Shown: piece after piece, positions 21,484 through 58,473 of the stretch
How positions within the stretch are numbered: the first letter of the stretch is position 1
How the letters are laid out: each line of letters opens with the position of its first letter
Notes under the pieces: generated by a model
Told to the model about the DNA's origin: nothing
What the model saw: only the letters and a program-made list of their open reading frames with translations
Database searches by the model: none
Translations under genes and position numbers: made by a program
From: Burkholderiales bacterium
GTDB taxonomy: Bacteria; Pseudomonadota; Gammaproteobacteria; Burkholderiales; Casimicrobiaceae
Direction of reading: 5' to 3'
DNA length: 64,000 bases
Assembly (NCBI GenBank): GCA_025354165.1
Contig: JANXNI010000029.1
Span: 62,001-126,000, forward strand

Positions 21484-21599
21484 CAGCTTTTCGATGAAAA
21501 GACGATTGCACAGGGGTTAGATGGCGATTAGATCAATAGTCGACTTGGTCGGTTATATCCAATTAGCCCTTATTCAATGGCGCGTTCAGCCCAAAGCTG
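21484..21599. repeat. Copy B of the dispersed palindromic element
   Basis: Left arm 21484-21519 (CAGCTTTT to GGGTTA), middle 44 nt, right arm 21564-21599 (TAGCCC to AAGCTG). Both arms are exactly 36 nt. The right arm contains a local hairpin CAGC-CCAAA-GCTG. The middle contains the stem CGATT with AGTCG, including one T-G wobble. It lies between the response regulator and the MFS gene. Confidence 0.85.
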
Positions 21600-21714
21600 A
21601 TGACCTCAATGCAGGCTAGACTGAAGATTTCGCACGCTGATTTTCTCCGACGTCGCTAGCATCGCGACTTGCTTTGTTCCCTTTTCTTCTACGCGCCAAG
21701 CGGTGCGGCAACGA

Positions 21715-22947
21715 ATGACCTCCCTCGAATCCCGTCAACGTATGTTCCGCGCGCTCGTCGCGGTCGCCATCATTTTGGGTATCGCCATGGGCACGCGAAA
21801 CGCGTTCTCCGGCCTGTTCCTGCAACCGATTTCGGCCGACATGAAATGGGGCCGCGAGGTGTTTTCGTTAGCCGTCGCGCTGCAAAATCTAGTGTGGGGC
21901 ATTGCACAACCCTTCATCGGCTACATCGCAGATCGCTACGGCGCGAAACGTGTGTTTGTGGTCGGCGCCGTGCTCTACACCGTCGGTTTGACCTGGACGG
22001 CGTTCCTGTCGAACACCTTCACGTTGGCGCTCTCCGGTGGCATCCTCATGGGCGTCGCGATCGCCTGCACGACGTATTCGGTGGCGTACAGCGTGCTCGG
22101 CAAAATGGTGCCGCCCGAGCGCCGCGCCTGGGCGTTCGGCATCAGCGCCGCAGCGGGCTCGTTCGGCCAGTTCCTGCTGATTCCGGTCGGACAATGGTTC
22201 ATCAGCCACAACGGCTGGTCGTTCTCGCTGGTGGGCCTTGCGCTCATCACTGCCACCATCGCGCCGTTAGGTTGGTACTTCGCCAAGCTGGGCGAAGCAG
22301 GCAAGTTGCCGCAGCCGCTCAGCAATGCGCGGCAGGCAACGGCGGGTGAGGCGCTGCGCACTGCGTTCGCAGATCGCAGTTTTTCGCTGCTGACGCTGGG
22401 CTATTTCGTTTGTGGATTTCAGGTCGTCTTCATAGGCGCGCATCTCACGCCCTATTTGCTCGACAAAGGCATCGAAGCCCGCGTTGGCGTCACGGCACTC
22501 GCACTGATCGGTCTGTTCAATTGTTTCGGCACCTATCTCGCGGGCGTCGTCGCGGGCAAGATGCCCAAGCGCTACGTGCTCTCGTTCATTTACATCATGC
22601 GCTCGGTCGTGATTGTCGCGTTTCTCGCGCTGCCGATTTCGGAGTGGAGCGTGTATGCGTTCGCCGCAGCGATTGGTTTCTTGTGGCTCTCCACAGTGCC
22701 GCCGACCAACGCCATCATCGCGCAGGTGTACGGCGTTCGCTACCTCGGCATGCTGGGTGGCATCGTGTTTTTCTCGCACCAGATTGGTAGTTTTTTGGGG
22801 GCTTGGCTCGGTGGGAAAATTTATGACGCCACGGGAAACTACAACACGGTTTGGATGTTGACGATTGGGCTTGGCGTGTTTGCGGCGTTGGTGCATTTGC
22901 CGATAGATGAGCGGGCGTTAGATGGCCGTCAACCGGCGTTGGCGTAG
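21715..22947 (+). CDS. MFS transporter
   Basis: The product is 410 residues from the ATG at 21715; an in-frame GTG at 21703 would add four. Twelve membrane helices are expected. The cytoplasmic loop between helices 2 and 3 reads GYIADRYGAKRV, the signature of the major facilitator superfamily, and the second half has an equivalent near AGVVAGKMPKRYV. The overall look (QPISADMKWGREVFSLAVALQ) fits the monocarboxylate or oxalate/formate-like branch. The substrate cannot be set from sequence, and there are no linked catabolic genes. Confidence 0.88.
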   Translation: MTSLESRQRMFRALVAVAIILGIAMGTRNAFSGLFLQPISADMKWGREVFSLAVALQNLVWGIAQPFIGYIADRYGAKRVFVVGAVLYTVGLTWTAFLSNTFTLALSGGILMGVAIACTTYSVAYSVLGKMVPPERRAWAFGISAAAGSFGQFLLIPVGQWFISHNGWSFSLVGLALITATIAPLGWYFAKLGEAGKLPQPLSNARQATAGEALRTAFADRSFSLLTLGYFVCGFQVVFIGAHLTPYLLDKGIEARVGVTALALIGLFNCFGTYLAGVVAGKMPKRYVLSFIYIMRSVVIVAFLALPISEWSVYAFAAAIGFLWLSTVPPTNAIIAQVYGVRYLGMLGGIVFFSHQIGSFLGAWLGGKIYDATGNYNTVWMLTIGLGVFAALVHLPIDERALDGRQPALA

Positions 22948-22967
22948 CCCACCTCGCGCACACTGCC

Positions 22968-23376
22968 GTCATTCTCGGCGCAGCCGGGAATCCAGCTCGT
23001 AGTCCGCGCAAAGCGCAAATCAGTTCCCGCGCCCCTTGCGGGCGAGGGCTAGGGAGAGGGGGTGGTTGCACGCCATCCAAAGCTTCAACGAAGAACCCAC
23101 TCCCCGTTCGTGGTGAGCACGTCTAACCATGAACGCGGCGCCACCTATGCGCTCATGCCGCGCGGGCAGTCACTTTCTTCTGCTCCGCCAGAAGAGAGCA
23201 ACCAAAGAAGAGGCGGCCCCGACATTCGCCCTGATCCGAGATTTGAAGCGAAAACGTCGCGCGGTCCGAAACTCGCTGCGCTCAAACAACGGACCGCTTC
23301 ATCGACGTTTTCACTCCAAATCTCGGGTGCGAATGAACGGGGACCCCGTCGAACCGATATTTGATCGCTCCGCGAT
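22968..23376. repeat. Left arm of the long inverted repeat around the FRG gene
   Basis: This 409-bp stretch is the imperfect reverse complement of 24253-24654. It runs from GTCATTCTCG through a CCCTCTCCC-type unit (about 23030), a CCCCGTTCGTGGTGA unit (about 23102) and a palindromic unit with GAAGCGAAAACGTCG (about 23245) to GATCGCTCCGCGAT. Translated fragments such as RDLKRKRRAVRNSLRS belong to a dispersed repeat, not a gene. With its partner it brackets an 876-bp segment. Confidence 0.85.
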
Positions 23377-23473
23377 GAGGACGACAAGAGCTCGGATGCG
23401 AGCGTCTGGACCACCCACCTCTGGACTGACCGTTGAAAATCTTCAAAGGGAGGCTTGTCCATACAATTAGCTG

Positions 23474-24235
23474 ATGATTGAAGAGAAGACTTTCTTTAGC
23501 ATTGATCGCGCCTTGGTGTGGCTCCAAATGCAGGTCTCGCAGGGCTTTTGCTGGTATCGCGGCCACACCAACGCCGAGTACAAGTTAGTGCCAAAGGTCT
23601 TCCGGCCCGATTGCACAAAGACCGAGAACAATCTATATCGAGGGTTTATCCGAGAAGCGTACTCGTTGCTTGGAAATCATGCCCCTAACGATCTGTACTC
23701 GATTGATTGGTTACCTCTCATGCAGCACTACGGACTAGCAACGCGCGCGCTCGATTGGACTACCACCCCGTTGACGGCATTGTTCTTCTCCGTGAGCAAC
23801 GAAACTGACGATACCGTAGGCCATGAACAAGACGGCACAGTCTGGCTGTTGAATCCGACTCGCCTTAACGAACTTTGTTGGCCAAACGGTGGAGGAATCA
23901 TCCGTAATGATGCGCCGTTTATGCGTCTACATATGTTGCAAGCAATTTCGCAGGGTTGCTTACCTCCACCCAAGGCAGTGGCTTTTCAGTCGCTGCGTCG
24001 AACAGTGCGCGAACGGGCGCAACACGGCGCGTTCACAATTCACTCTGGATCGTTACCTCTGGAGCAGTTGGCAGAGTCTGAGACTTTTCTCAAGAAAATT
24101 CGAATTCCGAATCACAAGAAACTATTTTTCAAAGAGTTACTGTTTACATGCGGTATTGACGCGGCTTCAATGTTCGCGGAGTTGCCGCACGTTGCGCAAC
24201 GCTTGATGCTTAGAACGAAGAACTCCGCGCGCTGA
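23474..24235 (+). CDS. FRG-domain protein
   Basis: The product is 253 residues. The FRG domain is clear: FCWYRGHTNAEYKLVPKVFR near residues 25-45 and LMQHYGLATRALDWTTTPLT near residues 84-105, with conserved Arg, Gly, His and Asp. FRG proteins have been linked to phage defence and other accessory functions, but the activity is not settled. No partner gene or secretion signal is evident. It is flanked by inverted repeats of about 400 bp, and its codon and base use look more AT-rich than its neighbours, which suggests transfer as a one-gene unit. Confidence 0.85.
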   Translation: MIEEKTFFSIDRALVWLQMQVSQGFCWYRGHTNAEYKLVPKVFRPDCTKTENNLYRGFIREAYSLLGNHAPNDLYSIDWLPLMQHYGLATRALDWTTTPLTALFFSVSNETDDTVGHEQDGTVWLLNPTRLNELCWPNGGGIIRNDAPFMRLHMLQAISQGCLPPPKAVAFQSLRRTVRERAQHGAFTIHSGSLPLEQLAESETFLKKIRIPNHKKLFFKELLFTCGIDAASMFAELPHVAQRLMLRTKNSAR

Positions 24236-24252
24236 TCATTTGGAATGACGAA

Positions 24253-24654
24253 ATCGCGAAGCGATCAAATATTGGTTCGACGGGGCCCCCGTGTATTCGC
24301 CCCCGTGATTTGAAGCGAAAACGTCGATGAAGCGGTCCGTTGTTTGAGCGTAGCGAGTTTCGGACCGCGCGACGTTTTCGCTTCAAATCTCGGATCAGGG
24401 CGAATGTCGGGGTCGCCTTTTTTGGGTTACCTTTTTTGGCGAAGCAAAAAAGGTGACTGCCCTGCGGCATGAGCAGCTCGTGCAACCGCTTCCATGGTTC
24501 GACAAGTTCACCACGAACGGGGAGTTGGGTCTTCAAGCGCAAGGCGGCGCAACGCCACCAAACCCCTCACCCTAACCCTCTCCCGCAAGGGGCGAGGGCA
24601 CTGAAGTGCGCTTCGCGGGGACTATGGGCTGGATTCCCGCTTCGCGAGAATGAC
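24253..24654. repeat. Right arm of the long inverted repeat around the FRG gene
   Basis: Reverse complement partner of 22968-23376. It starts ATCGCGAAGCGATC, 17 bp after the FRG stop codon, contains an internal palindrome with GAAGCGAAAACGTCG near 24313 and its complement near 24371, then the GTTCGACAAGTTCACCACGA unit (24498) and a CCCTCTCCCGCAAGGGG unit (about 24575), and ends CGAGAATGAC at 24654. Confidence 0.85.
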
Positions 24655-24698
24655 GACTCTACGCCGAGGACGACGACTGCCTTGCGGCATGAGCGCTC

Positions 24699-27600
24699 CT
24701 ACTGCAATGTAGAAATCGGAGCCAACAGTGCATCCACATCCGCCACCGTCAACCCGGTCAACGCATTCCCTTCACCCTCCAGCAACGCCGAAGCCAACTC
24801 CCGTTTCCGCGCCAGCATATCCAGCATGCGCTCCTCCAGCGTCCCTTTGGCCACCAGCTTCGTCACGATCACGGGTTTGTCTTGGCCCATGCGATGCGCG
24901 CGCGCCGTGGCTTGCGCTTCTACTGCTGGATTCCACCAGGGGTCGTAGTGGATGATGGTGTCGGCGGCGGTTAGGTTGAGGCCTACGCCACCGGCTTTGA
25001 GGCTCAGCAAAAAAACGCGCGTTTTGCCTGCCTGAAAATCGGCAATTGGGGTATCACGATCCGTGGTGTCGCCGGTCAATAGCGAGAAGGCGATGCCCTG
25101 CGCGTTGAGCATTTCGGCGATGAGTGCGAGCATGCTGGTGAACTGCGAGAAGATGAGCATGCTGCGGCCTTCTTCGAGCAGTTCGGGAACGTGCGTGCCT
25201 AGCCATTCGAGCTTGGCTGAACCTGCAGTGGCGATGTGTTTCCTCGCGCCGGGCAGCTTGACGAGTCTTGGGTCGCAGCAGACTTGCCGAAGTTTCAACA
25301 GGGCGTCGAGGATATGAATCGTGCTGTTCTTCAGGCCCTTTTTGTCGATGACTTTGCGGATGTCTTCGTGAATCGCCGTGCGCAGCGATTCGTACATGTC
25401 GGCCTGCGCAGTTTCAAGCTCGATCCAGCGCGTGTACTCGGTTTTTGGCGGCAATTCAGTGAGCACCTGATCGCGACCGCGGCGCAGGATGAAGGCGCGG
25501 ATTCGCGCCTTCAATTTTTTCATCTGCTCGTTATCGGCGCGTTGCTCGATGGGGTGACGGAAGATGCGATTGAAGCCTTCGAGATCGCCTAGCAAACCGG
25601 GAATCAGCACGTTGTAGATCGCCCACAATTCGCCGAGATGATTCTCCATCGGCGTGCCAGTGAGCGCGATGCGTTGATGTGCTTTGAGGGATTGCGCGGA
25701 CTGGTAGGTTTTTGCTTTCGCGTTTTTAAGCGTCTGCGCTTCGTCAAAAACGACGACATCCCATTCGATGTCGGCGAGCATTTTTTCGTCGCGTTGTAGC
25801 AACGGGTAGCTGGTCAGAACAATGTCTGCGCCCGCGAAGGCCCTTGCGTCCGAACTGCGCTCTGCACCATGGTGGCGATGGATTTTTAGCGTGGGAGCGA
25901 AGCGTTCGGCTTCACGTTGCCAGTTGGAAAGGACTGAGGTGGGAGCAATGATCAGATTGGGTTTGCGTGCTACGAGCACTTCGACGGGCTCGGTGCCAAC
26001 GGGCAGCGGCAATTCTCGTAATCGATGCAAGTGCGCCAACGTCTGCACGGTTTTACCGAGACCCATATCGTCCGCCAGCACGCCGCCCATGCTCAGTTCA
26101 TGCAAATGCGCGAGCCACGCGAGGCCATGATTTTGATAGGGCCGCAGCGTCGCGCTAAACCCGTGGGCAATGGTCACCGGAACCAGCTCCGACCCGCTGC
26201 GCAGCCGCTCGCGCATCGACAGCCACGCGGGATGATCACGACCGAAATATTGAACGGTGTCATTGGGCAAATCCGGCATCAACGCAGCTTGCAGTAGGCT
26301 GATTTCGCCGACGCTGCCGCCTTGAAACCACTCGAACACTGGCGTCAAAATCGCCGCGATGCGATCACCGGGAATGCGCACGACTTGTGACGTCTTTACG
26401 CGATCCGGCACGGGTACGGAGAGCAATACATATTCCACCGATGGGAGTGCCTTGAGCCACTGCTCCGGATCACTTTGCGCTGCGATTAACTTGGCAAGCG
26501 CGGGTGCCATGTCGACGCGTTTGCCATCGACATCAACGCCTAACGACAAACGAAACCAGCCGTTTTCGTTGCCGGGAGACAACTCCAGCGATGGCTCGGG
26601 AATGTCTTCCATCGAGATCGGAAATCCCGTCTCGATTTCGATGGCGAAGCCTGCCATTTGCGCGTCAGCTAGAACCGCCGGGCCACGGCCTGACCAGTCA
26701 TGATCGGGTAGGCCCCAGAGCGATTCGCGCAAGGCCTTGATGTCGCGCGCATAGGCGAGCGACGGCTCGATGCGATCTGCGAGGTACAGCAGGCGCGGCA
26801 TGCGCATTTCCCAGCGCGATTCAACGCGTACATTGCGCAGACGTTGGCTTAGCACTTCGCGACCCACGCGCTCTTGTTCCACCGCATGTTCAAGGCCGTT
26901 CCTTTGATACTGCAACAGCTTGCCGTCGGGGTAGCGGAACAACAGTTGTACAGCGGGGAACACACGACTTTGAAGGCTTGAATTTCGCCCCCAGCCGACG
27001 GACACATCGAACTCAACGAGCGCGAAACGCAGTACCGGTGAAGGGACGGGAAGAGGGGCCTCAACATCGCTCACGGTCGGGCAACGTGGAATCGCGTGGA
27101 AGTCCGGCAGCTCGCGCAGCGCATCGGCGACGAACGCCCATGCGCTCGTATCGTCGGCTTTGAGCGGAGGCAGTGCGACGAGGCGAGCGAGCGTTGTTGC
27201 GCTGACTTTTGTTTGCAGGGGGCGCAAGACGTTGTGCGGCGTGTCGATCACTAGCGGCGGGTCTAGCGCGATGATCGGTAGTGTTGATTCTGGATCACGA
27301 CGCGTAGTCTTTGCTCGCAATGCGACGCGTGTGCCGAGCGGCGTTTCAATATCGTCCCACGCAAGCGTCATCGGTTCGGCATCGGCCTGCGTCAATGCCG
27401 CGGCCAGCGGTGGAACTTCGGCTGACTTGAGCGCTTTCGTCCGCGCCTCGGTGTCAGTGAAGCCAACGGGGGCGATCCACATGCGCTCTGTTTCGAGCGC
27501 CATCTTCAGCAGTTGCGTGCCGATCACGCCGTTCAATTGCAGAATCGGGCGTGACGACTGCAAGCCAATCGTCGCCGCGAGCATGCGCAAAATCGGCTCG

Positions 27601-28304: not shown

Positions 28305-28350
28305 GCGTTACTTATTTACCGAATTCGAGTTGATTTGGCGGGATGGTGTC

Positions 28351-28463
28351 GCCTCGCCCCTCGTGGGAGAGGGCTAGGGTGAGGGGGCGGCCGAGGAGCA
28401 AAGCCAACTGAACTCTCCAATCCCGCCCCTCACCCCCACCCTCTCCCGCAAGGAGCGAGGGGG
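28351..28463. repeat. Inverted pair of CCCTCTCCC-type repeats before the helicase gene
   Basis: Units at about 28351-28387 and 28426-28463 are imperfect reverse complements, each with a GGGAGAGGG or CCCTCTCCC core and a GTGAGGGG or CCCCTCAC end. They fill most of the gap between polA and the helicase gene, both on the minus strand. Confidence 0.75.
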
Positions 28464-28479
28464 TCAAACCGAGCCTCAT

Positions 28480-32020: not shown

Positions 32021-32038
32021 GTGAGGTATTGTGGGAAT

Positions 32039-32156
32039 CAGCTTTTTTGTGAAAGCTTTATTGCATATGGGCTAGATGGTGATTTTTACCGACAGTCGAT
32101 CTATGATGGTATTGAGCCCATAGCCCTTATTAAATGGTCGTTTCAGCGAAAAGCTG
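32039..32156. repeat. Copy C of the dispersed palindromic element
   Basis: Left arm 32039-32074 (CAGCTTTT to GGGCTA), middle 46 nt, right arm 32121-32156 (TAGCCC to AAGCTG). The arms match each other at about 24 of 36 positions. The middle keeps the stem TGATT with AGTCG using G-T wobbles. The right arm has the hairpin CAGC-GAAAA-GCTG. It ends only 13 bp before the GTG start of the CysQ-like gene. Confidence 0.85.
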
Positions 32157-32169: not shown

Positions 32170-32892
32170 GTGCTAAATAGTGACGTAAAACTTGCGACGC
32201 GACTGGCGCTGGAAACGGGCGCACTGCTTGCCTCGTTGCGGCTTACGTCCGGCCTTGAGGGGTATCCGCTGGGCGATGCGGGTGATAGGCAGGCCAACGA
32301 ATTTTTGCTGCGTGAACTGGCCACGCATCGCCCGCTTGACGCCGTGCTTTCTGAGGAGTCGCACGATGATCGCGAGCGTCTGAATGCAAACCGTTTGTGG
32401 GTCATTGATCCACTCGACGGCACCCGTGAATATCGCGAGCAACGCGGCGATTGGGCCGTGCATGTGGCGCTGGTTGACCGAGGTAGGGTCATTGCCGCTG
32501 CGGTTTCGCAGCCCTCACGCGATGAAGTTTTTTCTTCCATGACCACGCCAACGCCTGCAGTGTCGAAACGCGTTATCGTGATCAGTCGTTCACGCCCACC
32601 CGCAAAGGCGCAGGCGATCGCCAACGCGCTTGACGCAACGCTGGAGCCGATGGGTTCAGCGGGTGTCAAGGCGCTGGCGGTGGTGCGAGGCGAGGCGCTG
32701 GCCTATGTGCACGAAGGTGGCCTCAACGAATGGGATGCGGCGGCACCGATTGGCGTGGCGCTGGCGCATGGGCTGCATGTGTCCGATTTGCAGGGCCGCG
32801 CGATTGTTTTCAATCAGCACGATGTGGTGCTGCACGGCGGGCTGATTATTTGTCGGGCGGAGTGCGCAGCAACGATTTTGCGGTCCTTGTAA
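32170..32892 (+). CDS. Inositol-monophosphatase family phosphatase (CysQ-like)
   Basis: The product is 240 residues from a GTG at 32170. Metal-binding motifs are SEESHDD (Glu62, Glu63), DPLDGTREY (Asp80, Asp83) and the late LNEWDAAAP. These define the lithium-sensitive phosphatase family; the short length and EES form resemble CysQ, which recycles 3'-phosphoadenosine 5'-phosphate. A related sugar-phosphate substrate cannot be excluded. The start sits just after repeat copy C, so the end of the element forms its 5' leader. Confidence 0.85.
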   Translation: MLNSDVKLATRLALETGALLASLRLTSGLEGYPLGDAGDRQANEFLLRELATHRPLDAVLSEESHDDRERLNANRLWVIDPLDGTREYREQRGDWAVHVALVDRGRVIAAAVSQPSRDEVFSSMTTPTPAVSKRVIVISRSRPPAKAQAIANALDATLEPMGSAGVKALAVVRGEALAYVHEGGLNEWDAAAPIGVALAHGLHVSDLQGRAIVFNQHDVVLHGGLIICRAECAATILRSL

Positions 32893-32970
32893 GAGCGGCT
32901 TGCCGCGACCCATCCAGCGCTAGCAAAAATCGTTCTTGAATCGCCACCTTGGGTCGCGGCAGGCCGCTCC
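32892..32970. terminator. Long inverted repeat between convergent genes
   Basis: GAGCGGCTTGCCGCGACCCA and its near complement ending at 32970 form a stem of about 21 bp with two mismatches, around a 37-nt loop. It lies between the CysQ-like gene (plus) and the ferredoxin gene (minus), converging on it, so it may end transcription from both sides. It also resembles a dispersed extragenic palindrome. Confidence 0.6.
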
Positions 32971-32987
32971 TACAACGGCGCTAAAAG

Positions 32988-43320: not shown

Positions 43321-43436
43321 CAACTTTTTGCAGTAATCTCTTCTGAATAGGGACTACGACTCACAAATAGCTAAAGTCGAGAATTGCCAATTTGAGCTTC
43401 TAGCTCTTATAAAATAGTCGATTCAACAAAAAGCTG
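43321..43436. repeat. Copy D of the dispersed palindromic element
   Basis: Left arm 43321-43356 (CAACTTTT to GGACTA), middle 44 nt, right arm 43401-43436 (TAGCTC to AAGCTG). The arms are less alike than in other copies, but arm lengths and spacing are the same. The central stem is CGACT with AGTCG, which differs from CGATT/AATCG of copies E and F by a paired change. It lies between two divergent genes. Confidence 0.8.
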
Positions 43437-43643: not shown

Positions 43644-43662
43644 AGGTCAACATAATTGACCT
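43644..43662. promoter_or_regulatory. Palindromic operator candidate upstream of the indolepyruvate oxidoreductase gene
   Basis: AGGTCAA and TTGACCT form perfect 7-bp arms around CATAA, 74 bp before the start codon. This size and layout suits an Lrp/AsnC-type or other dimeric regulator. Regulators of that type often control this gene in related bacteria as far as I know, but none is encoded nearby. Confidence 0.4.
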
Positions 43663-50932: not shown

Positions 50933-51167
50933 GTTTTGCTCCAAGGGTTTGCGACAAGAGGCCTAAATTCGCGGCATATCTGAACCGGGTCCAGCATGCG
51001 CGTTTCAGAGCCTTGGTCTCTAGCGGGGCTCGCTGCGAATTATCTGCTTCGCGCTGTAAAAAATCAAATAAATCAATGACTTAATCCACGAAGGCACGAG
51101 TGAGAACGCGAACTAATCGCGCTTGAATCCGTGACTTTCGCGAAGCCTTGGCAATGTTGTGGTGATA

Positions 51168-51283
51168 CAACTTTTCGCTGAAATGACGTCTAATCACGGG
51201 CTGACGTCGATTAATGACTTTAATCGACTTGCAACGAATTGCGAGCTTAGCGCCTATGAAAAGGCGCTTCCACGTAAAAGCTG
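51168..51283. repeat. Copy E of the dispersed palindromic element
   Basis: Left arm 51168-51203 (CAACTTTTCGCTGAAA to GGGCTG), middle 44 nt, right arm 51248-51283 (TAGCGC to AAGCTG). The central stem is GTCGATTA with TAATCGAC. The right arm also has GCGCC and GGCGC, able to pair locally. It lies between bfd and bfr, both read from the other strand; the rest of the 366-bp gap holds nothing I recognise. Confidence 0.85.
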
Positions 51284-51298
51284 ATAGTCCGAGTTGGG

Positions 51299-51484
51299 CT
51301 ACGCGGCCTGTGCGAAAGTCGCGCCCAGCGCGTCGTCCAGCACCGATTTCGCGCAATCCGTGCACTTGCCGCAGCAGGTGCCAACGCCGGTCTGACAGGC
51401 GAGGTCGCTCATAGTGCACGCGCCGTCCGCCACCGCCTGGTGGATCGCTTTGTCGTTAATGCCGTGGCAGATACAGACGATCAT
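51299..51484 (-). CDS. bfd: Bacterioferritin-associated ferredoxin
   Basis: The product is 61 residues. Four cysteines, in CICHG (Cys4, Cys6) and TCCGKC, bind a [2Fe-2S] cluster in the usual Bfd pattern. It passes electrons to bacterioferritin so that stored iron is released as ferrous ion. A Fur-type palindrome lies 36-50 bp upstream of the start, consistent with derepression in iron starvation. Confidence 0.95.
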   Translation of the reverse strand: MIVCICHGINDKAIHQAVADGACTMSDLACQTGVGTCCGKCTDCAKSVLDDALGATFAQAA

Positions 51485-51519
51485 GGATGAAATTAACTAT
51501 CGTTGAAGATGTTTGTTAA

Positions 51520-51534
51520 TGCGAACTATTCGTA
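51520..51534 (-). promoter_or_regulatory. Fur-type box 1 upstream of bfd
   Basis: TGCGAA-CTA-TTCGTA, an imperfect palindrome with the 15-bp 7-1-7 size of a Fur box. Read toward bfd, its 22-bp context matches box 3 (upstream of hemP) at 21 of 22 positions. It lies in the 91-bp gap between feoB and bfd. Confidence 0.7.
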
Positions 51535-51575
51535 ATATTGTAGCGACTTGCGGAAAGTCAAGCAAGCGGATTTCT

Positions 51576-53660
51576 CTAAGCCGTTAGCGCCAGCGTTACT
51601 CGATAAGTGACAAACGAAGCCAGATAGGCGAGGCCAAACAAGTAGCACGCCATGAGAATCGGCATTTTCCAGCCGCCGGTTTCGCGCTTCACCGTGGCAA
51701 GTGTGGACAAACATTGCGGCGCAAACACGAACCACGCCAAAAGCGAAAACGCCGTCGCTAGGCTCCACGACTTGGCAATGATCGGCGACAGCGCCTGCGC
51801 GGTGTCCGCACCCGTCGCGGCCAGCGCATACACGGTGCCGAGCGCGCCCACCGCGACCTCGCGTGCCGCGAGGCCGGGCACCAGCGCGATGCTGATTTGC
51901 CAGTTAAATCCAATCGGCTGAAACACCACAGCCAGTGCACGACCCAACACGCCCGCGACGCTGTATTCAATCGCGGCACCAGTTGCTCCGGGCGGTGGCC
52001 CTGGAAAGCTGGCCAGAAACCACAGCGCCAGCGTGAGCACAAACACAATGGTGCCGACTCGGCGCAAAAAAATCAGCGCACGCTGCCATAGTCCGAGCGC
52101 CAGATTACGCACGGTTGGCCAGTGATAGGCGGGCAACTCCATCATCAGCGGGCGCACCTGACGACCGCTCGCCGTGAACGTCTTGAGCACCCACGCCACC
52201 GCCATTGCCCCGAGAATTCCCGCTCCATAAAGTGCGAGCAAAACGAGTCCCTGCAACTCGACGCCACCCCACATTTTTCGCGCGGGAACGAATGCGCCGA
52301 TCAACAACGCATACACCGGCAGCCGCGCGGAGCAGGTCATCAGCGGCGCGATCATGATGGTCACCCAACGGTCGCGCGCGTTGCTGATTGAGCGCGCCGC
52401 CATGATGCCCGGAATCGCGCAGGCGAAGCTCGACAACAGCGGAATGAACGAGCGGCCCGAGAGCCCGACCGATGCCATCACGCGATCCAGCAGAAACGCG
52501 GCGCGCGGCAAATAGCCCGATTCTTCAAGGATCAAAATGAAGAAAAAGAGAATCAGGATTTGCGGAAGGAACACGACCACGCCACCGAGGCCCGCGATAA
52601 TTCCATCGACGACCAGACTGCGAATCCAGCCTTCGGGCAACAGCGCCCCGAGCGACGTACCGAGCCACGCGGTCGCCTCTTTGATCGCGTCCATCGGCAC
52701 CGTCGCCCAGGCAAACACCGCCTGAAACATTAGGAACAGCACGATGACCAAAAGTATCGGGCCGAGCACTGGATGCAACACCACGCGGTCAATGCGATCA
52801 CTCTGCGCATGGGGAAATTGATCGTCAATGCCCAGCGTTTGCAGAATGCGACGAACGGTTTCGTGATCGCCTGCGGTTTCGTGGGCGCGCGTGTTCAGCG
52901 TCGAGTTGATTTGTCCGGTTGACGCCGCGCCGCTCTGTCCCCGCTCCCCTTGCGGGAGAGCGGGCAAAGCTTGGGCCTCGTTAGGGCCGGGGTGAGGGGT
53001 AAGGTTGCTTGAGGAGTCAGGTCGGTTATGAGCGCCACCGTCACCCGCCCCTCTCAAGGGAACGGGTGACGAATTCTCTTCGTGCTGGACATGCTTCGCT
53101 TCCGCCACAGCTTTCCGCCAAACCTCTTTATCCTCAATCAAAACGCGCAGCGCCTCATCCCCGCCCGCCTTGACGCCAATCGTCTCAACCACCGGTATGC
53201 CTAACGCTTGCGACAATGCGTCAGCATCTACATGTACCCCGCGCGCCCGCGCAATGTCGGCCATATTGAGCGCCACAATCATTGGCAAACCGAGCCGCTT
53301 CACAGCGAGCACCAACCGCAAATTGCGCCGCAAATTAGTCGCATCGACAACACAAACAACCAGATCCGGCTGCTTCTCGCCGCGTGCGCGCCCGTTCAAC
53401 ACGTCAATGGTCACTCGCTCATCGGGGGAGCGAGGATACAAGCTGTAAGCGCCCGGCAAATCGAGCACGCGGACAGTCTTCCCGCCGTCGGTCCGCAGTC
53501 GTCCCTCTTTGCGCTCGACCGTTACGCCTGCGTAATTGGCCACTTTTTGCCGACTACCGGTAAGCAGATTAAACAGTGCCGTCTTGCCGCAATTCGGATT
53601 TCCAACCAGCGCGACAAGTGTTCCTGCGGGAAAAAAGTGAACCGTTGATTGGCTCATCAT
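51576..53660 (-). CDS. feoB: FeoB ferrous iron transporter
   Basis: The product is 694 residues. The N-terminal GTPase domain has GNPNCGKTALFN, DLPGAYSL and NMADIA. The membrane part has gate-like repeats (FLPQILILFFFILILEESGYL, SFACAIPGIMAARSI). FeoB moves ferrous iron across the inner membrane. Between the GTPase and membrane parts, about residues 190-250, lies a low-complexity stretch (SSPVPLRGAGDGG, then LTPHPGPNEAQALPALPQGERG) that encodes dispersed repeat units. The start overlaps the feoA stop by 4 nt. Confidence 0.97.
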   Translation of the reverse strand: MMSQSTVHFFPAGTLVALVGNPNCGKTALFNLLTGSRQKVANYAGVTVERKEGRLRTDGGKTVRVLDLPGAYSLYPRSPDERVTIDVLNGRARGEKQPDLVVCVVDATNLRRNLRLVLAVKRLGLPMIVALNMADIARARGVHVDADALSQALGIPVVETIGVKAGGDEALRVLIEDKEVWRKAVAEAKHVQHEENSSPVPLRGAGDGGAHNRPDSSSNLTPHPGPNEAQALPALPQGERGQSGAASTGQINSTLNTRAHETAGDHETVRRILQTLGIDDQFPHAQSDRIDRVVLHPVLGPILLVIVLFLMFQAVFAWATVPMDAIKEATAWLGTSLGALLPEGWIRSLVVDGIIAGLGGVVVFLPQILILFFFILILEESGYLPRAAFLLDRVMASVGLSGRSFIPLLSSFACAIPGIMAARSISNARDRWVTIMIAPLMTCSARLPVYALLIGAFVPARKMWGGVELQGLVLLALYGAGILGAMAVAWVLKTFTASGRQVRPLMMELPAYHWPTVRNLALGLWQRALIFLRRVGTIVFVLTLALWFLASFPGPPPGATGAAIEYSVAGVLGRALAVVFQPIGFNWQISIALVPGLAAREVAVGALGTVYALAATGADTAQALSPIIAKSWSLATAFSLLAWFVFAPQCLSTLATVKRETGGWKMPILMACYLFGLAYLASFVTYRVTLALTA
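52937..53080. repeat. Dispersed repeat units inside feoB
   Basis: CCGCTCCCCTTGCGGGAGAG (about 52941) and GGCCGGGGTGAGGGGT (about 52985) match the intergenic CCCTCTCCC-type repeats at 15.7, 23.0, 24.6 and 28.4 kb. A further palindromic piece around 53039-53069 has TCACCCG and CGGGTGA around CCCCTCTCAAGGGA. They stay in frame and encode a linker in FeoB. Confidence 0.75.
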
Positions 53661-53932
53661 TCAGCCGACAGCACCCGAATGCAGCGTGCCTCGGCACGCT
53701 TGAGCGCAAAGGTGGAAGCGCCAACACGCACGACGAGCGGGTCACCGCCCACCGCGCTGCGCCCGGTAACGGTCACCGTTTCGCCCGCCAGGAAGCCAAT
53801 ATCTTCCAGCCAATGTGACCACTCCGGCACATCAACCGGCGGATGCAAGGCCGTGACCACGTAGCGTCGACCCACAACGGCCTGATCCAGGCCGAAGCTC
53901 AACGCGCTTTGTTCTGCGACCGATTGTTTCAT
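53657..53932 (-). CDS. feoA: FeoA iron transport accessory protein
   Basis: The product is 91 residues with an SH3-like FeoA fold (WLEDIGFLAGETVTVTGRS, DPLVVRVGASTFALKRAEA). FeoA assists FeoB. It is the first gene of a feoAB operon. The start is about 205 bp from Fur-type box 2, giving a long leader with no recognised element. Confidence 0.93.
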   Translation of the reverse strand: MKQSVAEQSALSFGLDQAVVGRRYVVTALHPPVDVPEWSHWLEDIGFLAGETVTVTGRSAVGGDPLVVRVGASTFALKRAEARCIRVLSAE

Positions 53933-54136
53933 CTAGTAAATGCGCTGGCGCGCGCGAACTTCCCATATTCGCCGATCACAAAACCAGCGAGGCGAGAGGG
54001 AAGGTCCCGTGCGTGCGAAGCGCCCGGCATCGAGGCCGAGCTGCCCAGCGTGGGTTCGTCTTGTGACGCTAACGGATTAGATAGAAAGGGGTGCAATTTG
54101 AAACCAGCGTTCCTAGATTGGGGATCATAACCGATA

Positions 54137-54151
54137 TGCGAACAATTCGTA
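54137..54151. promoter_or_regulatory. Fur-type box 2 between feoA and hemP
   Basis: TGCGAA-CAA-TTCGTA shares both half-sites with boxes 1 and 3. It is the closest such site to feoA, so it probably controls feoAB. Confidence 0.65.
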
Positions 54152-54167
54152 TTTATATAGTTGCTTA

Positions 54168-54195
54168 ATGCTACATGCTAGATGCCAGATGCAAA
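54168..54195 (+). repeat. Seven-base tandem repeat between the two Fur-type boxes
   Basis: ATGCTAC, ATGCTAG, ATGCCAG and ATGCAAA follow one another, four units sharing ATGC at 7-bp spacing. It has no obvious function. The rest of 53933-54412 holds only the two Fur-type boxes. Confidence 0.5.
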
Positions 54196-54331
54196 CGAAT
54201 CAATGGGACACCGACCTGTGACCACAGCGTGGTTTGCGCGGCGAATGATCGAGGTCATTGACGGGCGCGACTGGTATTTTTTTTGAAGAGCCCCAAAGTT
54301 CGCGGCGTTCCAAAATATTTTTTATAAGTAT

Positions 54332-54346
54332 TGCGAATAGTTCGCA
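54332..54346 (+). promoter_or_regulatory. Fur-type box 3 upstream of hemP
   Basis: TGCGAA-TAG-TTCGCA is a perfect 6-3-6 palindrome 67 bp before the hemP ATG. TTGCGA inside it could also serve as a -35 element, with TAAAGT at 54354-54359 as a weak -10. Confidence 0.75.
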
Positions 54347-54412
54347 TTAACTGTAAAGTTACCACATCGAAAAGCGAATCGCCACTCCACCACGAAGCGC
54401 CATACGTAAAAA

Positions 54413-54745
54413 ATGCCAGCCATTCCCGACATCATCGCCGCCGAAACGCACGTTGAAAAAAGAGTCACCCGATCGCGCGAGACGCTCTCGGTGCGAGCGG
54501 TCTCGGTGTCGCGCCCAGAGGTTACTTCCAGCCCGGCACGTCGTGTCAATGTCGATCATGCGAACAGTGGAAACGCCGCATCAGGCACGCAAAACGGCGT
54601 TGTCCCGTTGAAGCGCCTGACAGCAGGTCGGAAGGAACTGAAGATTGGACATGATGGCGCGACGTACTTGCTGCGCATCACCAAATCAAACAAACTTATT
54701 TTGACGAAAACTGACGACGCAACGCAGGGCGTGTCAACTTCGTAA
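54413..54745 (+). CDS. hemP: HemP family hemin uptake protein
   Basis: The product is 110 residues. The conserved HemP core is C-terminal (LKRLTAGRKELKIGHDG and YLLRITKSNKLILTK). HemP proteins are small factors of the hemin uptake regulon; members in Burkholderiales can act as regulators of the haem receptor. The N-terminal 60 residues are polar and longer than in most relatives, which may mean a later true start or an added tail. No haem receptor adjoins. A Fur-type box lies upstream. Confidence 0.82.
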   Translation: MPAIPDIIAAETHVEKRVTRSRETLSVRAVSVSRPEVTSSPARRVNVDHANSGNAASGTQNGVVPLKRLTAGRKELKIGHDGATYLLRITKSNKLILTKTDDATQGVSTS

Positions 54746-54819
54746 CTGTTTACCGCCGATTAGCCAAGCCGGACTCGCACTCCCTGGCACTAGCCACATC
54801 GGCCCCTTCTAAACGAACC

Positions 54820-56007
54820 TTACAACGCATCGCCACAAGCGGCACCGCTCGCCCAGGCCCACTGAAAGTTGTAACCGCCCAACCAGCCAGTGACGTCCAT
54901 CACTTCGCCAATGAAATGCAATCCAGCGACGGCTTTTGCTTCCATCGTCTGCTGCGACAACGCCCTTGTATCAACGCCACCCAACGTGACTTCCGCCTTC
55001 TTGTAACCCAGCGTTCCTGACGGTTTCAACGGCCACGCTTTGAGCAGAGTTGCAACGTGATTCAGCTCAGTCCTGGTCCACTCAGCGAGTGGTTTTACAG
55101 GCGCATGCGCGGCCGCCCACGAGTCACTCAAACGCTGCGGCACATGCTCGGCCAGCGCCTTCGCGAACGACGTGGGAACCGGACGGCGCGCGCGAAGTTC
55201 GTTGAGCCAGGTCACCCCATCAATGCCCGGCAGCAAATCAAACAATACGTCGCCACCTGGTTGCCAATAGTTCGATATCTGCAACACCGCCGGGCCAGAG
55301 AGCCCACGGTGCGTCATCAGCGCCGCCTCACGAAACTCAGCCTCCGAATCGTCGCAACGCGCGACGGTATCGAACGCTACGCCCGACAACATACCGTAGC
55401 GCTCCATCGCGGGCGCGTCGAGCGCCAGCGGAACCAGACCCGCGCGAAGCGGCGTAACCGGCACGCCAAATTGCTTTGCGACTTCATAACCGAACGCCGT
55501 CGCGCCGGTTGCAGGAATCGACAGACCGCCCGTCGCGATCACGAGCTTCGCCGCGTTCATCGTTCCACGTGAAGTGTCCACAACGAAACCGTCACCGTGA
55601 TGAATCTGCTGCACCGTCACCGGATGCATCAACGTCACCCGGCCTTTGGCGCATTCATCGAGCAGCATGTCGATGATCTGCTGTGAAGACTCGTCGCAGA
55701 ACAATTGCCCCAACGTTTTCTCGTGATACGAAATGCGATGTTTCGTCACCAGACGGACAAAATCCTGCGGCGTAAAACGTGCGAGCGCAGAGCGGCAAAA
55801 ATGCGGATTTTGCGAAAGAAAATTTGCCGGACTCGTACCGATATTCGTGAAGTTGCAGCGCCCGCCGCCCGAGATTCGAATCTTCTCGCCAATGGTTTCC
55901 GCATGATCAATCAGCGCCACTCGACGACCGCGCTGCCCTGCGCGCGCCGCACAAAAAAGCCCCGCCGCACCGGCTCCGATAATGATCGCGTCAAAGTTTT
56001 GTTGCAT
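54820..56007 (-). CDS. HI0933/YhiN-type flavoprotein
   Basis: The product is 395 residues. The N-terminal dinucleotide-binding motif is IIIGAGAAGLFCAARAG, followed by EKIRISGGGRCNFTN, and the end has GEVMDVTGWLGGYNFQWAWASG, both typical of this FAD- or NAD-binding family. The reaction is not established. It converges on hemP. Confidence 0.92.
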   Translation of the reverse strand: MQQNFDAIIIGAGAAGLFCAARAGQRGRRVALIDHAETIGEKIRISGGGRCNFTNIGTSPANFLSQNPHFCRSALARFTPQDFVRLVTKHRISYHEKTLGQLFCDESSQQIIDMLLDECAKGRVTLMHPVTVQQIHHGDGFVVDTSRGTMNAAKLVIATGGLSIPATGATAFGYEVAKQFGVPVTPLRAGLVPLALDAPAMERYGMLSGVAFDTVARCDDSEAEFREAALMTHRGLSGPAVLQISNYWQPGGDVLFDLLPGIDGVTWLNELRARRPVPTSFAKALAEHVPQRLSDSWAAAHAPVKPLAEWTRTELNHVATLLKAWPLKPSGTLGYKKAEVTLGGVDTRALSQQTMEAKAVAGLHFIGEVMDVTGWLGGYNFQWAWASGAACGDAL

Positions 56008-56103
56008 GCTGCAAATGTAGCGGTCGCGCAGGGATTTCTCCCGGAATCACGTGACTAAGCTCGCGCTGCGTAACGCTTGCAGTTTCGCTTCAGCGACAGC
56101 AAC

Positions 56104-56412
56104 TCACACCATTTTGGTGTCGCCCATCATGACGTCGACGCCCGCACTGGCAAAGTTGCCGAGATCGGCGGCAGTGGCCTGACCTTGAGGCGATGCCATC
56201 GCCACAGCGACGGCAGCCATTGATTCAAACTCAAGAATGGCGATCAGATAAATGCCGTGTTTACCCGCCATCCCCATCACGTCACCTCGCGTCACTTCAT
56301 AGCTGATCAAGCCAGGAATGCTCTTGGCGAGCGGTAAATGCGTGTTGAAGTAGTAGTGGTCAAACGCGGCGGGATCTTTCGGCTGCTGATAGATCGCGAA
56401 TAACTTTGCCAT
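56104..56412 (-). CDS. EthD family small protein
   Basis: The product is 102 residues. HYYFNTHLPLAKSIPGLISYEVT is the EthD or ferredoxin-like dimeric fold signature, and the late FASAGVDVMMGD also fits. Members are often linked to degradation pathways, but none is adjacent here. Confidence 0.85.
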   Translation of the reverse strand: MAKLFAIYQQPKDPAAFDHYYFNTHLPLAKSIPGLISYEVTRGDVMGMAGKHGIYLIAILEFESMAAVAVAMASPQGQATAADLGNFASAGVDVMMGDTKMV

Positions 56413-56441
56413 GACGTTTCTCCTTGGGTTGTCGTGAGCGT

Positions 56442-56861
56442 CTATTGTGCGCCAATGCGGGTGGTCGATTTGATGAATTCCACGCGCCGAAACCGCAGCG
56501 CCGACCAGTCCTCATCGATGGCTACCGCACGCACCGTGTCGAAGCCAGCGCTCTTTAGAACGCTCCAGCCGGTGTCGCGGTTGAAGTCGCACTGGTACTT
56601 TTTCGACGTTCCCTTGGGATAGGCGAACCACAGCAGCGCGTCGCCTTCTGTCTTGGCCGACAGCAGCTTCGCCAGACGATCCACTTCGGCTTGATTGGCC
56701 GCGAACGCAAGTGCAAAGCGAATAGTCTTCACTTTGCCCGGATCGCGATTCACGATGACCCCAGCGAGCGCCGCTAGCTCGGATTCAAACGAAGCGGGCG
56801 CATTGACCACGAGGATTTCGCGATGGTCTTTGAGATTTAGTTTTTCGAAGAGTGTGGGCAT
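56442..56861 (-). CDS. DUF3052-like protein
   Basis: The product is 139 residues. The pattern DALLWFAYPKGTSKKYQCDF and VRAVAIDEDWSALRFRRVEF resembles the DUF3052 family. A possible Rossmann-like alternating beta/alpha pattern is seen. No function is known. It lies 29 bp upstream of the EthD gene on the same strand. Confidence 0.7.
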   Translation of the reverse strand: MPTLFEKLNLKDHREILVVNAPASFESELAALAGVIVNRDPGKVKTIRFALAFAANQAEVDRLAKLLSAKTEGDALLWFAYPKGTSKKYQCDFNRDTGWSVLKSAGFDTVRAVAIDEDWSALRFRRVEFIKSTTRIGAQ

Positions 56862-56900
56862 ATTTGCCTCTCTTAATTGAAGTAATTGCCGGTTGCCAAT

Positions 56901-57473
56901 TTAAGCGATTGGCGGTTCCTTGCTCCTAAATCTGCGCCAGACATGCATAAAAGCCGGGCGAACGCAAAGATGTACGAGTGTGGACAATGCTGCGACGACA
57001 AACGCAACGACAGTAGGCAGGATTGCACCAAACGTAAACGTCATACCCAGCACGAACCCAAGCACGTATTCCGCCCGGTAAACCGGAAACAGCAGCGCCA
57101 GCAACAAGATGCCCATGAACAAATACTCAGTAACGGTTTCATGGCCGCTCGTGAATGAGGCGGACAGCAAGATGCCGACGAGCAGGGTGCCGAGGAATCC
57201 GACGACGACGCTCTTCGGTAGTTTTTGTGATGAGTCTTTCGCGCCTGCATTCTGCGCAATTCGCTTCTGCATAAACGCCGAAAGGAACCACGTCAACAGC
57301 GGAAGCAGGAGTAAGCCCCACGCGTTGGAAATGGCGGGCATATCTGCACTGTTCAGGAAGTGATGGCTGCGGATGCCGCCGTGGAAATGCTCCCATGCCA
57401 GGTGAGCCAGTTCGGCAAGCGTGACCGCTGCGGTCAGGTACCGACGCGTCTGTGCGGATGCCAGTTGAATCAT
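56901..57473 (-). CDS. Unrecognised inner-membrane protein
   Basis: The product is 190 residues from the ATG at 57473; a TTG at 57506 would add 11. Five or so membrane helices are visible (AWGLLLLPLLTWFLSAFM, VVGFLGTLLVGILLSASF, YLFMGILLLALLFPVY, ILPTVVAFVVAALSTLV). A His-rich WEHFHGGIRSHHF precedes helix two. I do not recognise the family. It follows an attC-like site in the same orientation, so it may be the next cassette of a former integron array, though no second attC is seen after it. Confidence 0.65.
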   Translation of the reverse strand: MIQLASAQTRRYLTAAVTLAELAHLAWEHFHGGIRSHHFLNSADMPAISNAWGLLLLPLLTWFLSAFMQKRIAQNAGAKDSSQKLPKSVVVGFLGTLLVGILLSASFTSGHETVTEYLFMGILLLALLFPVYRAEYVLGFVLGMTFTFGAILPTVVAFVVAALSTLVHLCVRPAFMHVWRRFRSKEPPIA

Positions 57474-57525
57474 GCAGTTTTCATATGTAGCCACTGCGGG
57501 TAACAAACGCTGAGTTTGCCTTGAG

Positions 57526-57585
57526 GTTTAACGTTTGAGTTAAGCGGCTGGCCGAAGGCTAGTCCACGTCAAGGGAGGGTTAGGC
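57526..57585 (-). other. Integron attC-like recombination site
   Basis: Read on the minus strand, the 60-bp stretch starts GCCTAAC (R'' type, RYYYAAC) and ends GTTAAAC (R' type, GTTRRRY). Between them GTGG, CTAGCC, the loop TTC, GGCCAG and CCGC can pair, with TTGA pairing with TCAA further out. Size, boundary motifs and folded shape all fit an attC site. It lies about 60 bp after the stop of the DUF4019 gene on the same strand, the correct place for a cassette gene. Confidence 0.7.
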
Positions 57586-57643
57586 GTTGCCACAGGAAAC
57601 GAGGCGCCTACGGTCTCGGCCACTTGCTTGCGTGCGGGTCGAT

Positions 57644-58063
57644 TCACTTGATGAAGTACCCTGAAACTTTCCAAGAACCGTCCTTCTCCCGCATTGGCGT
57701 TACGGTTTCTATCGCAGCTTCCTTGTTCTCGAATCTGCTCTCGTATTGGATGACGACGTATTCTCCGTCCGGGGCACCGGGAAGTGATCGCGTGAACGTG
57801 GCTGACTTGATCGTGCGTGACTTCAGACTTCCAAAAGGCGCTCTAACACCCTGGATAGCACTTTGCCAACTTGGCTTCGATACCGCAGCCTGAAATACGC
57901 CTGCGGCTTGTTCCCAAGTTTGCGAGTATTCGCCCATATCCGCTAGTTCAAGCCAAGACTTCGCAGCAACCCGTGCGCTTGCGATTTTCTCGGCGTCTTG
58001 CGCACGAACTGGAGCGACGAATAGAGTGAGTGTGACGAGGATGATGCTAAAGATATTCTTCAT
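57644..58063 (-). CDS. DUF4019 exported protein, probably a gene cassette
   Basis: The product is 139 residues from the ATG at 58063; a longer frame to 58312 has no family features. A signal peptide (IILVTLTLFVAPVRA) precedes AKSWLELADMGEYSQTWEQA and VVIQYESRFENKEAAIETVT, typical of DUF4019. The function is unknown. An attC-like site follows the stop, so it looks like an integron cassette. A matching attC upstream was not found. Confidence 0.82.
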   Translation of the reverse strand: MKNIFSIILVTLTLFVAPVRAQDAEKIASARVAAKSWLELADMGEYSQTWEQAAGVFQAAVSKPSWQSAIQGVRAPFGSLKSRTIKSATFTRSLPGAPDGEYVVIQYESRFENKEAAIETVTPMREKDGSWKVSGYFIK

Positions 58064-58258
58064 AGGAACCCCCATATTGTTTGGCGATGTTACGGCGAAA
58101 AGACGTCTACGTAATATCAACGCGTAACGCATCGTGAATATGCCAATTCGAGTGTTGTGCGCACCATTGAAAAATAACAGCGAACGGACGCATAAAGTCA
58201 TGTTTTCTCGGAGTAATTTGCCCGTCTGCAGTTTAGCGCCGCTGTCATCATGAGTCTC

Positions 58259-58330
58259 GCGAAGGATCAGGTGGCACACAACGTCCGTTCGCCTGTGCAG
58301 ACGTTTCCGCAAAACAACCTGATCCTTCGC
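58259..58330. repeat. Inverted repeat upstream of the DUF4019 gene
   Basis: GCGAAGGATCAGGT (58259-58272) and ACCTGATCCTTCGC (58317-58330) are perfect 14-bp arms around 44 bp. The right arm continues as TGTGGCTCAGGATG, like a commonly dispersed repeat. Confidence 0.7.
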
Positions 58331-58357
58331 TGTGGCTCAGGATGGCAGAAACAGCAA

Positions 58358-58473
58358 CAGCATTTCGCAGAAATGACCATTGAATGGGGGCTAAATGTCG
58401 ATTTAAGTACTAATCGACTATTGCCAATAATGCCAATTAGCCCCAATGAAATAAGCATTTCAGCCAAAAGCTG
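58358..58473. repeat. Copy F of the dispersed palindromic element
   Basis: Left arm 58358-58393 (CAGCATTT to GGGCTA), middle 44 nt, right arm 58438-58473 (TAGCCC to AAGCTG). GGGGCTAA and TTAGCCCC next to the middle pair perfectly. The central stem is GTCGATT with AATCGAC. It ends 27 bp before the DUF2970 start codon. Confidence 0.85.

Follow-up and report, generated by a model that had tools for sequence, protein, structure and literature searches.

We analysed a 64,000-nucleotide stretch of DNA from a Burkholderiales bacterium of the Casimicrobiaceae (contig JANXNI010000029.1, positions 62,001 to 126,000; hereafter the window), in which a symmetric element of 116-118 bp recurs in the spaces between genes. 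An initial annotation had described five full copies and one copy cut by the window edge. Both parts of this description held: the five full copies lie where they had been placed, measure 116, 118, 116, 116 and 116 nt in order, and are built of 36-nt arms around a 44-nt middle (46 nt in the 32039 copy), and the edge-cut copy was confirmed by a profile match on both strands (Table 1). The absent half of the latter lies just before the window start, and the whole is a single element centred at contig position C4:61996. The weakest of the five full copies scored E values of 9e-18 and 1.4e-17 on its two strands.

The 21484 copy is flanked by a response-regulator gene and an MFS gene, the 43321 copy lies inside a divergent gene pair (thioesterase and indolepyruvate-ferredoxin-oxidoreductase-like), and the 51168 copy stands between a ferritin-like gene and feoB, with a small open reading frame also predicted at 51299-51484. 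A DUF4019 gene, overlooked by our home-made gene caller, adjoins the 58358 copy. All five full copies are intergenic, as had been claimed, although this is too strict for the family at large, where 3 of 44 elements share more than 20 bp with a predicted gene and 8 of 44 run into one to any extent. Similarly, the last bases AAGCTG, reported as invariant, are so in the window copies but not family-wide, each base being 80-96% conserved among 107 copies from the same genome.

Table 1. Copies of the dyad element in the window, and the conserved blocks of the copy at 58358 (positions are those of the window)
Feature	Position	Strand	Remarks
Edge-cut copy	1..57	.	Model positions 66-116 at window 4-54; E 3.5e-6 / 3.7e-6 on the two strands
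Full dyad element, 116 bp	21484..21599	.	Dyad TCGA 21540-21543; E 6.8e-22
Full dyad element, 118 bp, middle 2 nt longer	32039..32156	.	Dyad TCGA 32096-32099; E 5.7e-19
Full dyad element, 116 bp	43321..43436	.	Dyad TCGA 43377-43380; E 1.7e-19
Full dyad element, 116 bp	51168..51283	.	Dyad TCGA 51224-51227; E 9e-18
Full dyad element, 116 bp, top-scoring of the window copies	58358..58473	.	Dyad TCGA 58414-58417; E 4.1e-25
Outer block, consensus CAGCTTTT, one change in the 58358 copy	58358..58365	.	Mirror 58466-58473; from column frequencies
G block GGGGCTA	58387..58393	.	Mirror TAGCCCC at 58438-58444; columns 30-36
A/T-only columns 44-47	58401..58404	.	Mirror 58427-58430; A and T about equally common in 45-47

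Anatomy and constraint of the element

The comparisons drew chiefly on three genomes of one genus, namely the window's own genome (G000, 4.72 Mb), a one-contig relative (G005) and a nearer relative (G001). A sequence-only profile, R1, was built from 29 copies in both orientations, the seeds being 35 places minus those that were not 116 nt and two partial ones, with the edge-cut copy already excluded. Column statistics used 75 copies (84 distinct G000 sites minus 9 that were not 116 nt), a set that includes loci added for good matching. Partial matches were lengthened to full size by construction, and near-full matches, in which the whole model is covered, were counted separately.

The G000 consensus is a perfect palindrome around TCGA, reading CAGCTTTTnnCTGAAAnnnCnATTGCATnGGGGCTAnnnnnnnAWWWnnnnnnWAGTC up to the axis and GACTW and the rest of the mirror image beyond it. 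Since both strands of each copy were pooled, the symmetry of the pooled columns is built in; independent evidence of symmetry comes from the equal scores on both strands and from a motif-free dyad scan described below. Length is nearly fixed. The 84 distinct sites comprise 75 of 116 nt, one of 115, six of 117, one of 118 and one of 128, and exactly 116 nt was found for 72 of 80 near-full G000 matches and, counting just those from stretches taken regardless of matches, for 65 of 72. In addition, the two bases beyond each end are A/T at 94% and 83% (72 copies), so the site is about 120 bp.

Constraint differs strongly from column to column, with information content between 0.0 and 1.8 bits. Columns 45, 46, 47 and 54 are 93-99% A-or-T with A and T about equally frequent (107 G000 copies), and columns 45-46 are again A/T-only in 49 G005 copies. 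In the minor groove A and T are hard to distinguish, and these columns thus point to a reading of the shape or minor groove of duplex DNA. Total information is about 84 bits in a 400-kb G000 sample, 87 in a larger G000 set and 65 in a G005 sample, whereas by our arithmetic some 13 bits suffice to mark some 470 places in 4.7 Mb. This excess suggests that the sites probably spread first by copying and were kept later for function. An origin by copying is likely, as point mutation could hardly make sites of this size, though the present sequences keep no trace of it: the 24 variable columns showed no relatedness among copies, with a mean pairwise identity of 0.336 versus 0.337 in the null and a maximum of 0.667 versus 0.667 (2775 pairs). 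A half-element scan classed 7 of 127 matches as partial copies, two of which stop at the dyad. At locus L023, a half-element (1501-1560) stops at the dyad directly before a gene start, and at locus L014 a partial copy (1228-1306) lies about 190 bp from a full one.

A functional stem would make the two arms covary, and the arms did not covary in any set. The 75 G000 copies formed 30.29 of 58 pairs, compared with 30.42 ± 0.35 when right arms were dealt to other copies; the corresponding values were 31.1 versus 31.9 (standard deviation, sd, 0.54) for 29 copies and 26.09 versus 25.80 (sd 0.69) for 32 G005 copies. Near-full matches gave the same result against shuffled arms, with 30.92 versus 30.94 (sd 0.35) for 72 G000 copies, 30.46 versus 30.09 (sd 0.37) for 65 unselected G000 copies and 27.00 versus 27.15 (sd 0.60) for 42 G005 copies. 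The element thus does not change as a stem would, and the pattern of change, as far as sequence comparison can tell, is that of a protein-bound dyad site in DNA.

Copy number, distribution and dialects

The motif-free dyad scan, which required at least 30 of 58 pairs and took shifted arms as its control, recovered 44 non-coding sites in 550 kb of G000 against 0.8 in the control. Together with the E values of the window copies, this excludes chance. The same scan found 33 versus 0.5 in G001 and 15 versus 0.5 in G005, but few in a further relative, G002 (2 versus 0.2), while named outgroup contigs gave 68 versus 7.5, probably ordinary hairpins. Given the outgroup figures and the low yield in G002, the scan cannot tell whether other genera hold dialects of their own that it does not recognise.

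Searching G000 with the profile built from the copies gave at least about 75 sites (150 matches listed, two strands per site), none with an E value above 1.1e-16. Twenty sampled 20-kb stretches per genome contained 40 sites per 400 kb in G000 and 37 per 400 kb in G005 (36 on a later run); in contiguous DNA, 53 sites were counted over 550 kb and 30 over 400 kb, and a larger G005 set has 63 sites over 760 kb. Extrapolation gives about 455-470 copies in G000 and 335-415 in G005, which bears out the early expectation of hundreds of copies per genome.

Of the 64 family genomes, R1 matched 16, every one belonging to the same genus as the window; that genus counts 17 genomes, G016 being the one without a match. 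The claim of a dispersed family without a name was borne out. Under stricter filters, with 9-10 candidates per genome scored, R1 matched 6 of 399 genomes across the order, all of the same genus, and 1 of 369 across the class, which was G000 itself. Named relatives of one window protein at 82-97% identity belong to metagenome genomes labelled 'Burkholderiales', 'Betaproteobacteria' or 'Pseudomonadota', and R1 matched 7 of 8 loci of those relatives and 0 of 72 other loci (E ≤1).

The code of the element differs between species. G002 has the same geometry with changed letters (A.CT at the outer end, a TAGCCC..ATTnAATnGGGGCTA half and an ATCGAT dyad). A second model, R2, was made solely from G002 plus a contig of the same genome (15 of 17 full-length sites listed, chosen by eye, with three weak seeds omitted by eye). 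R2 matched 15 of the 64 family genomes, 14 of them in the genus (not G009, G013 or G016), and its matches include G000 sites at known coordinates, the 58358 copy among them. Its one match outside the genus, in G063 (E 0.008), is taken as chance. Few R1 matches were obtained in G009 and G010 (18 of 61 and 15 of 61 scored, E ≤0.01), and G010 fits R2 better (53 of 58 scored). G009 (2.5 Mb) was the farthest genus member in a DnaJ search, at 80% identity; G015 and G016 are absent from that search. Among the genera searched with these models, convincing matches are confined to a single uncultured Burkholderiales-like genus, 16 of whose 17 genomes carry the element. No description of such an element was found among the papers listed in searches of the open-licence PMC literature, which is weak evidence of absence.

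Chromosomal placement

Elements often keep their place between species. For G000 and G005, 88 reciprocal-best protein pairs (median identity 80%) were compared: the G005 flank was occupied in 10 of 18 cases where the G000 flank was occupied, versus 6 of 152 where it was empty, the 10 co-occupied flanks representing 8 distinct elements. In some pairs the element lies nearly the same distance from the gene in both genomes (4 bp in each, or 7 versus 8 bp), whereas other pairs differ widely (128 versus 21 bp, 12 versus 60 bp). Co-located elements were not more alike than random pairs of a G000 and a G005 copy, either in high-information (0.56 versus 0.58) or in low-information columns (0.29 versus 0.29), in seven comparisons with one element counted from both sides.

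Between G000 and the nearer G001, alignments longer than 1 kb are about 82% identical. Among 42 G001 elements (322 kb), five lie in DNA alignable to the examined G000 sequence and the other 37 have no spanning alignment, most likely because their G000 counterparts fall outside that sequence. All five alignable sites hold an element in G000, and the reverse count is 5 of 5 distinct sites. Across these five pairs, differences occur at 17 of 150 positions in high-information columns and at 109 of 180 in low-information ones, a contrast that points to selection; the alignable 40-bp flanks differ at 90 of 370, below the low-information columns.

Upstream of the indolepyruvate-oxidoreductase-like gene, an element was seen by eye in six of eight named relatives (L053, L054, L056, L057, L058 and L060), with profile support in L053, L054, L056, L058 and L060; none was seen by eye at this place in L055 and L059. 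The flanks around this element are very different among the relatives. A further sequence upstream of the same gene, AGGTCAACATAATTGACCT at window 43644-43662, contains a GGTCAA...TTGACC palindrome that is kept in all eight relatives and is likely an ordinary operator.

Elements are also spaced more evenly than expected. Site counts in 20-kb stretches are under-dispersed, their variance being 0.95 at a mean of 2.0 and 0.87 at a mean of 1.85. In three contiguous stretches, random intergenic placement would give the gaps a coefficient of variation (CV) of 0.94, 0.85 and 0.92, whereas the observed values were 0.63, 0.50 and 0.67 (P 0.0065, 0.0015 and 0.0195; Fisher combination 2.6e-5), and gaps below 5 kb numbered 3, 5 and 4 against 10.1, 10.2 and 8.7 expected. 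The best 75 sites on the G005 chromosome had a CV of 0.79 versus 0.98 for uniform placement (P 0.02). No clear origin-to-terminus trend was seen in G005, where 39 of these best 75 sites lie in 0.3-2.4 Mb, and a replication bias, suggested by one-sided higher counts in the 20 sampled stretches, was not borne out by the best-75 list.

Gene context was scored for 44 elements with both neighbours, using the home-made caller that missed at least one real gene (the DUF4019 gene): 19 lie between tandem, 14 between divergent and 11 between convergent genes, the available junctions of at least 116 bp being 92 tandem, 41 divergent and 25 convergent. Of the 19 tandem cases, 11 start no more than 30 bp from the upstream stop and 3 are found at most 30 bp away from the downstream start. 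Such placement near upstream stops, together with the convergent cases, is unlike promoter control.

Other repeats also occur in the window. An FRG-domain gene (23474-24235) sits inside nested inverted repeats (22985-24639), with 169-nt arms that are 93% complementary (23208-23376 and 24253-24421) and outer pairs of 49 nt and 84 nt. A second dispersed palindromic family, of the CCCTCTCCC...GGGAGAGGG type, is found at 15687-15806, 28352-28460, 23020-23061 and 24563-24602; in two places it has 35-36-nt arms, 83% complementary, with 39-42 nt between them. A single inverted repeat at 32876-32986, at the end of an inositol-phosphatase-like gene, has 37-nt arms that are 81% complementary and 37 nt apart.

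A candidate protein-bound chromosome site and its alternatives

The symmetry, the absent arm covariation, the A/T-only columns, the near-fixed length and the even spacing were computed directly, as were the frequent persistence at orthologous sites, the restriction to one genus among those searched and the dialects. From these we infer that the element is bound by protein, that its binder is multimeric and that it has a role in chromosome architecture. The element would then be a putative site of a two-fold symmetric multimeric DNA-binding complex acting on the chromosome, a reading to which we give a probability of roughly 55%. Each element would be a double-stranded binding site of about 120 bp whose consensus is exactly two-fold symmetric, and a single multimeric protein of the same symmetry, or a few cooperating dimers, would read it. 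Base-specific blocks (CAGCTTTT, TGAAA, CAT.GGGGCTA and TCGA at the dyad) may alternate with A/T-only positions that serve the minor groove or a bend, and the rarity of indels would reflect the need for the blocks to sit on fixed helix faces. About one site per 10 kb, evenly placed and not tied to promoters, suggests that the bound complexes act on the chromosome, as loop or domain anchors or in topology control, and not on single promoters. On this model the sites would have spread by copying and afterwards been retained for function.

Several observations weigh against this interpretation. First, 8 of the 18 flanks occupied in G000 are empty in the more distant G005, and G016, of the same genus, has no element in 58 kb with any of four profiles at E ≤1, so the element is not essential there. 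Second, the length is less strict in G005: of 52 near-full matches, 42 are 116 nt, nine are 115 and one is 114, and with a re-trained G005 model 17 of 30 are 116 nt and 12 of 30 are 114-115 nt. Third, the periodicity of the A/T blocks is about 9.5 bp, the best of the tested range of 9.5-11 and short for B-DNA (column permutation, P 0.002 and 0.0004; block permutation, P 0.019 and 0.010), and the information profile is strongest at 13.5 bp, which is not the helical repeat; helical phasing is thus only partly supported. Fourth, the evenness of the spacing exceeds that of random placement only moderately, and gaps range from 2 to 46 kb. Finally, no binder was found among the candidates; counts of the HU/IHF, ParB and H-NS families in 64 family genomes each do not track the element. 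HU/IHF proteins number 2-4 per genome in carriers, 1-6 in non-carriers and 3 in G016; ParB matches occur in 59 of 64 genomes, with extra ones in 5 carriers and 3 non-carriers; and H-NS occurs in 5 of 16 carriers and in two non-carriers, one of which is G016.

A bolder form of the candidate reading is a dedicated genus-specific nucleoprotein system without known counterpart, a chromosome ruler of about 10 kb with evenly placed domain or loop anchors whose code drifts in concert between species; we advance it tentatively and with odds well short of even.

The initial annotation had named a miniature inverted-repeat transposable element (MITE), a REP-like element or a structured RNA as possible identities, and none is favoured: the arms do not covary, both strands score alike, target-site duplications are absent, the variable columns hold no subfamilies, and orthologous sites are often kept between species. 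First among the alternatives, though unlikely, is an old MITE or ERIC-like element, a joined pair of inverted terminal repeats that a transposase formerly mobilised and that now decays passively. It would suit the intergenic position, the length of about 116 bp, the hundreds of copies, an information content too high for origin by point mutation and the 7 of 127 partial matches, two stopping at the dyad; TA is also the commonest outer dinucleotide, though at just 40 of 144 ends (AT 35, AA 28). On the other hand, target-site duplications of 2-9 bp showed no appreciable excess over shuffled flanks in 72 copies (0.181 versus 0.161 for 2 bp), conservation is very uneven across columns, the arms are unpaired beyond the consensus and retention at orthologous places is frequent; passive decay is disfavoured. 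Transposon ends with an autonomous parent were rejected as well, with few partial copies, no duplications and no transposase recognised at the two loci with inspected reading frames, L014 and L023, no systematic search having been made. One element copy had no match in phage and plasmid records, and viral contigs held no exact instance of a pattern that, fitting 48 of 107 G000 and 0 of 49 G005 copies, covers the G000-like dialect only.

That the element is an operator through which one global transcription regulator controls hundreds of promoters seems somewhat less probable again. A dyad site that is intergenic, often kept beside the same gene and in 14 of 44 cases between divergent genes would fit such a role, but 11 of 44 elements lie between convergent genes, compared with about 6.8 expected from intergenic length by our arithmetic, tandem cases hug the upstream stop more than the downstream start, and even spacing is not what an operator predicts.

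Strong sites for DNA gyrase or topoisomerase IV would be a more doubtful proposal still, resting on analogy. The gyrase motif spans about 130 bp (47+36+47 bp), has phased A/T and G/C and centres on a 4-bp cut (PMC6379681, PMC12393610), a length and layout like those of the element; the enzyme is two-fold symmetric and cuts with a 4-base stagger at the dyad, here TCGA, and the element also shows A/T periodicity. BIME-2 elements are described as gyrase sites (PMC6379681), and the 400-500 supercoiled domains given for E. coli (PMC3820752) resemble the copy number. The likeness and the domain number are an analogy, not a test. The gyrase motif is reported as too degenerate for standard motif finders, whereas the element has strict blocks of 84-87 bits in G000 and 65 in G005; its A/T period is about 9.5; and gyrase is essential in nearly all bacteria (PMC12324340), while the element was found in one genus only.

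A structured RNA, terminator or mRNA-stability hairpin is very improbable. Single-strand folds (five copies on one strand, three also on the reverse) gave z from -0.9 to -5.5, with 4 of 8 strands at -3.5 or below, which the palindromic consensus may explain; despite these scores, an RNA hairpin as the main constraint is refuted by the absent arm covariation, and the equal scores of both strands, the A/T-only columns and the occupied divergent intergenic regions tell against it too. The comparison with Rfam that the initial annotation had proposed gave no window match at gathering score, and at E ≤1 over 58300-58530 the only hit was the plant microRNA MIR828, at 21.2 bits versus a cut-off of 69. 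Known uptake sequences are evenly spread, have dialects and also lie inside genes. An uptake sequence by which competent cells recognise their own DNA, in dialects that differ between species, would match the high copy number and the dialects, but is scarcely credible for an element of about 120 bp that is almost only intergenic, known uptake sequences being short (PMC7811141).

How the topological domains of bacterial chromosomes are set, and whether sequence encodes their borders, is an open question. If the candidate reading is true, a long, evenly spaced, kept and concertedly rewritten dyad would be a rare sequence-coded candidate that is directly testable. The element is moreover a clear case of a 'palindromic repeat' that by its own statistics is neither a hairpin nor a fresh mobile element, and the tests of arm covariation, A/T-only columns and spacing are usable on other orphan repeats.

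Among known systems, parS, matS and Noc sites are dispersed palindromic protein sites with a chromosomal role, as proposed here for the element, but they measure about 13-16 bp, occur in far smaller numbers and are confined to particular regions; no extra ParB-family protein tracks the element. REPs are short units, and REP/BIME units often stand in alternating arrays, whereas the element forms single dyads of 116-120 bp about 10 kb apart; its unit length and missing arm covariation do not match them. What REP/BIME families share with it is their nature as intergenic palindromes, often in more than 100 copies (PMC2817692), and they bind proteins, BIME-2 being gyrase sites (PMC6379681). ERIC or IRU (127 bp), YPAL and other bacterial MITE-like repeats, as PMC2229807 describes them, are likewise palindromic, about 100-170 bp long, largely intergenic and present in many copies. 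Terminal inverted repeats, target duplications and stable stems characterise most of the repeats in that source, and some show signs of having inserted, in contrast to the element, which has no duplications, arm covariation or subfamilies and shows frequent orthologous retention and even spacing. The closest published geometry that we found is that of the E. coli gyrase motif and the Mu strong gyrase site, which have a 4-bp centre and phased A/T and G/C over about 130 bp; the element, with its dyad and its A/T blocks at a period of about 9.5 bp, comes near them. The gyrase motif is degenerate with thousands of sites, whereas the element has strict base blocks and was found in one genus only.

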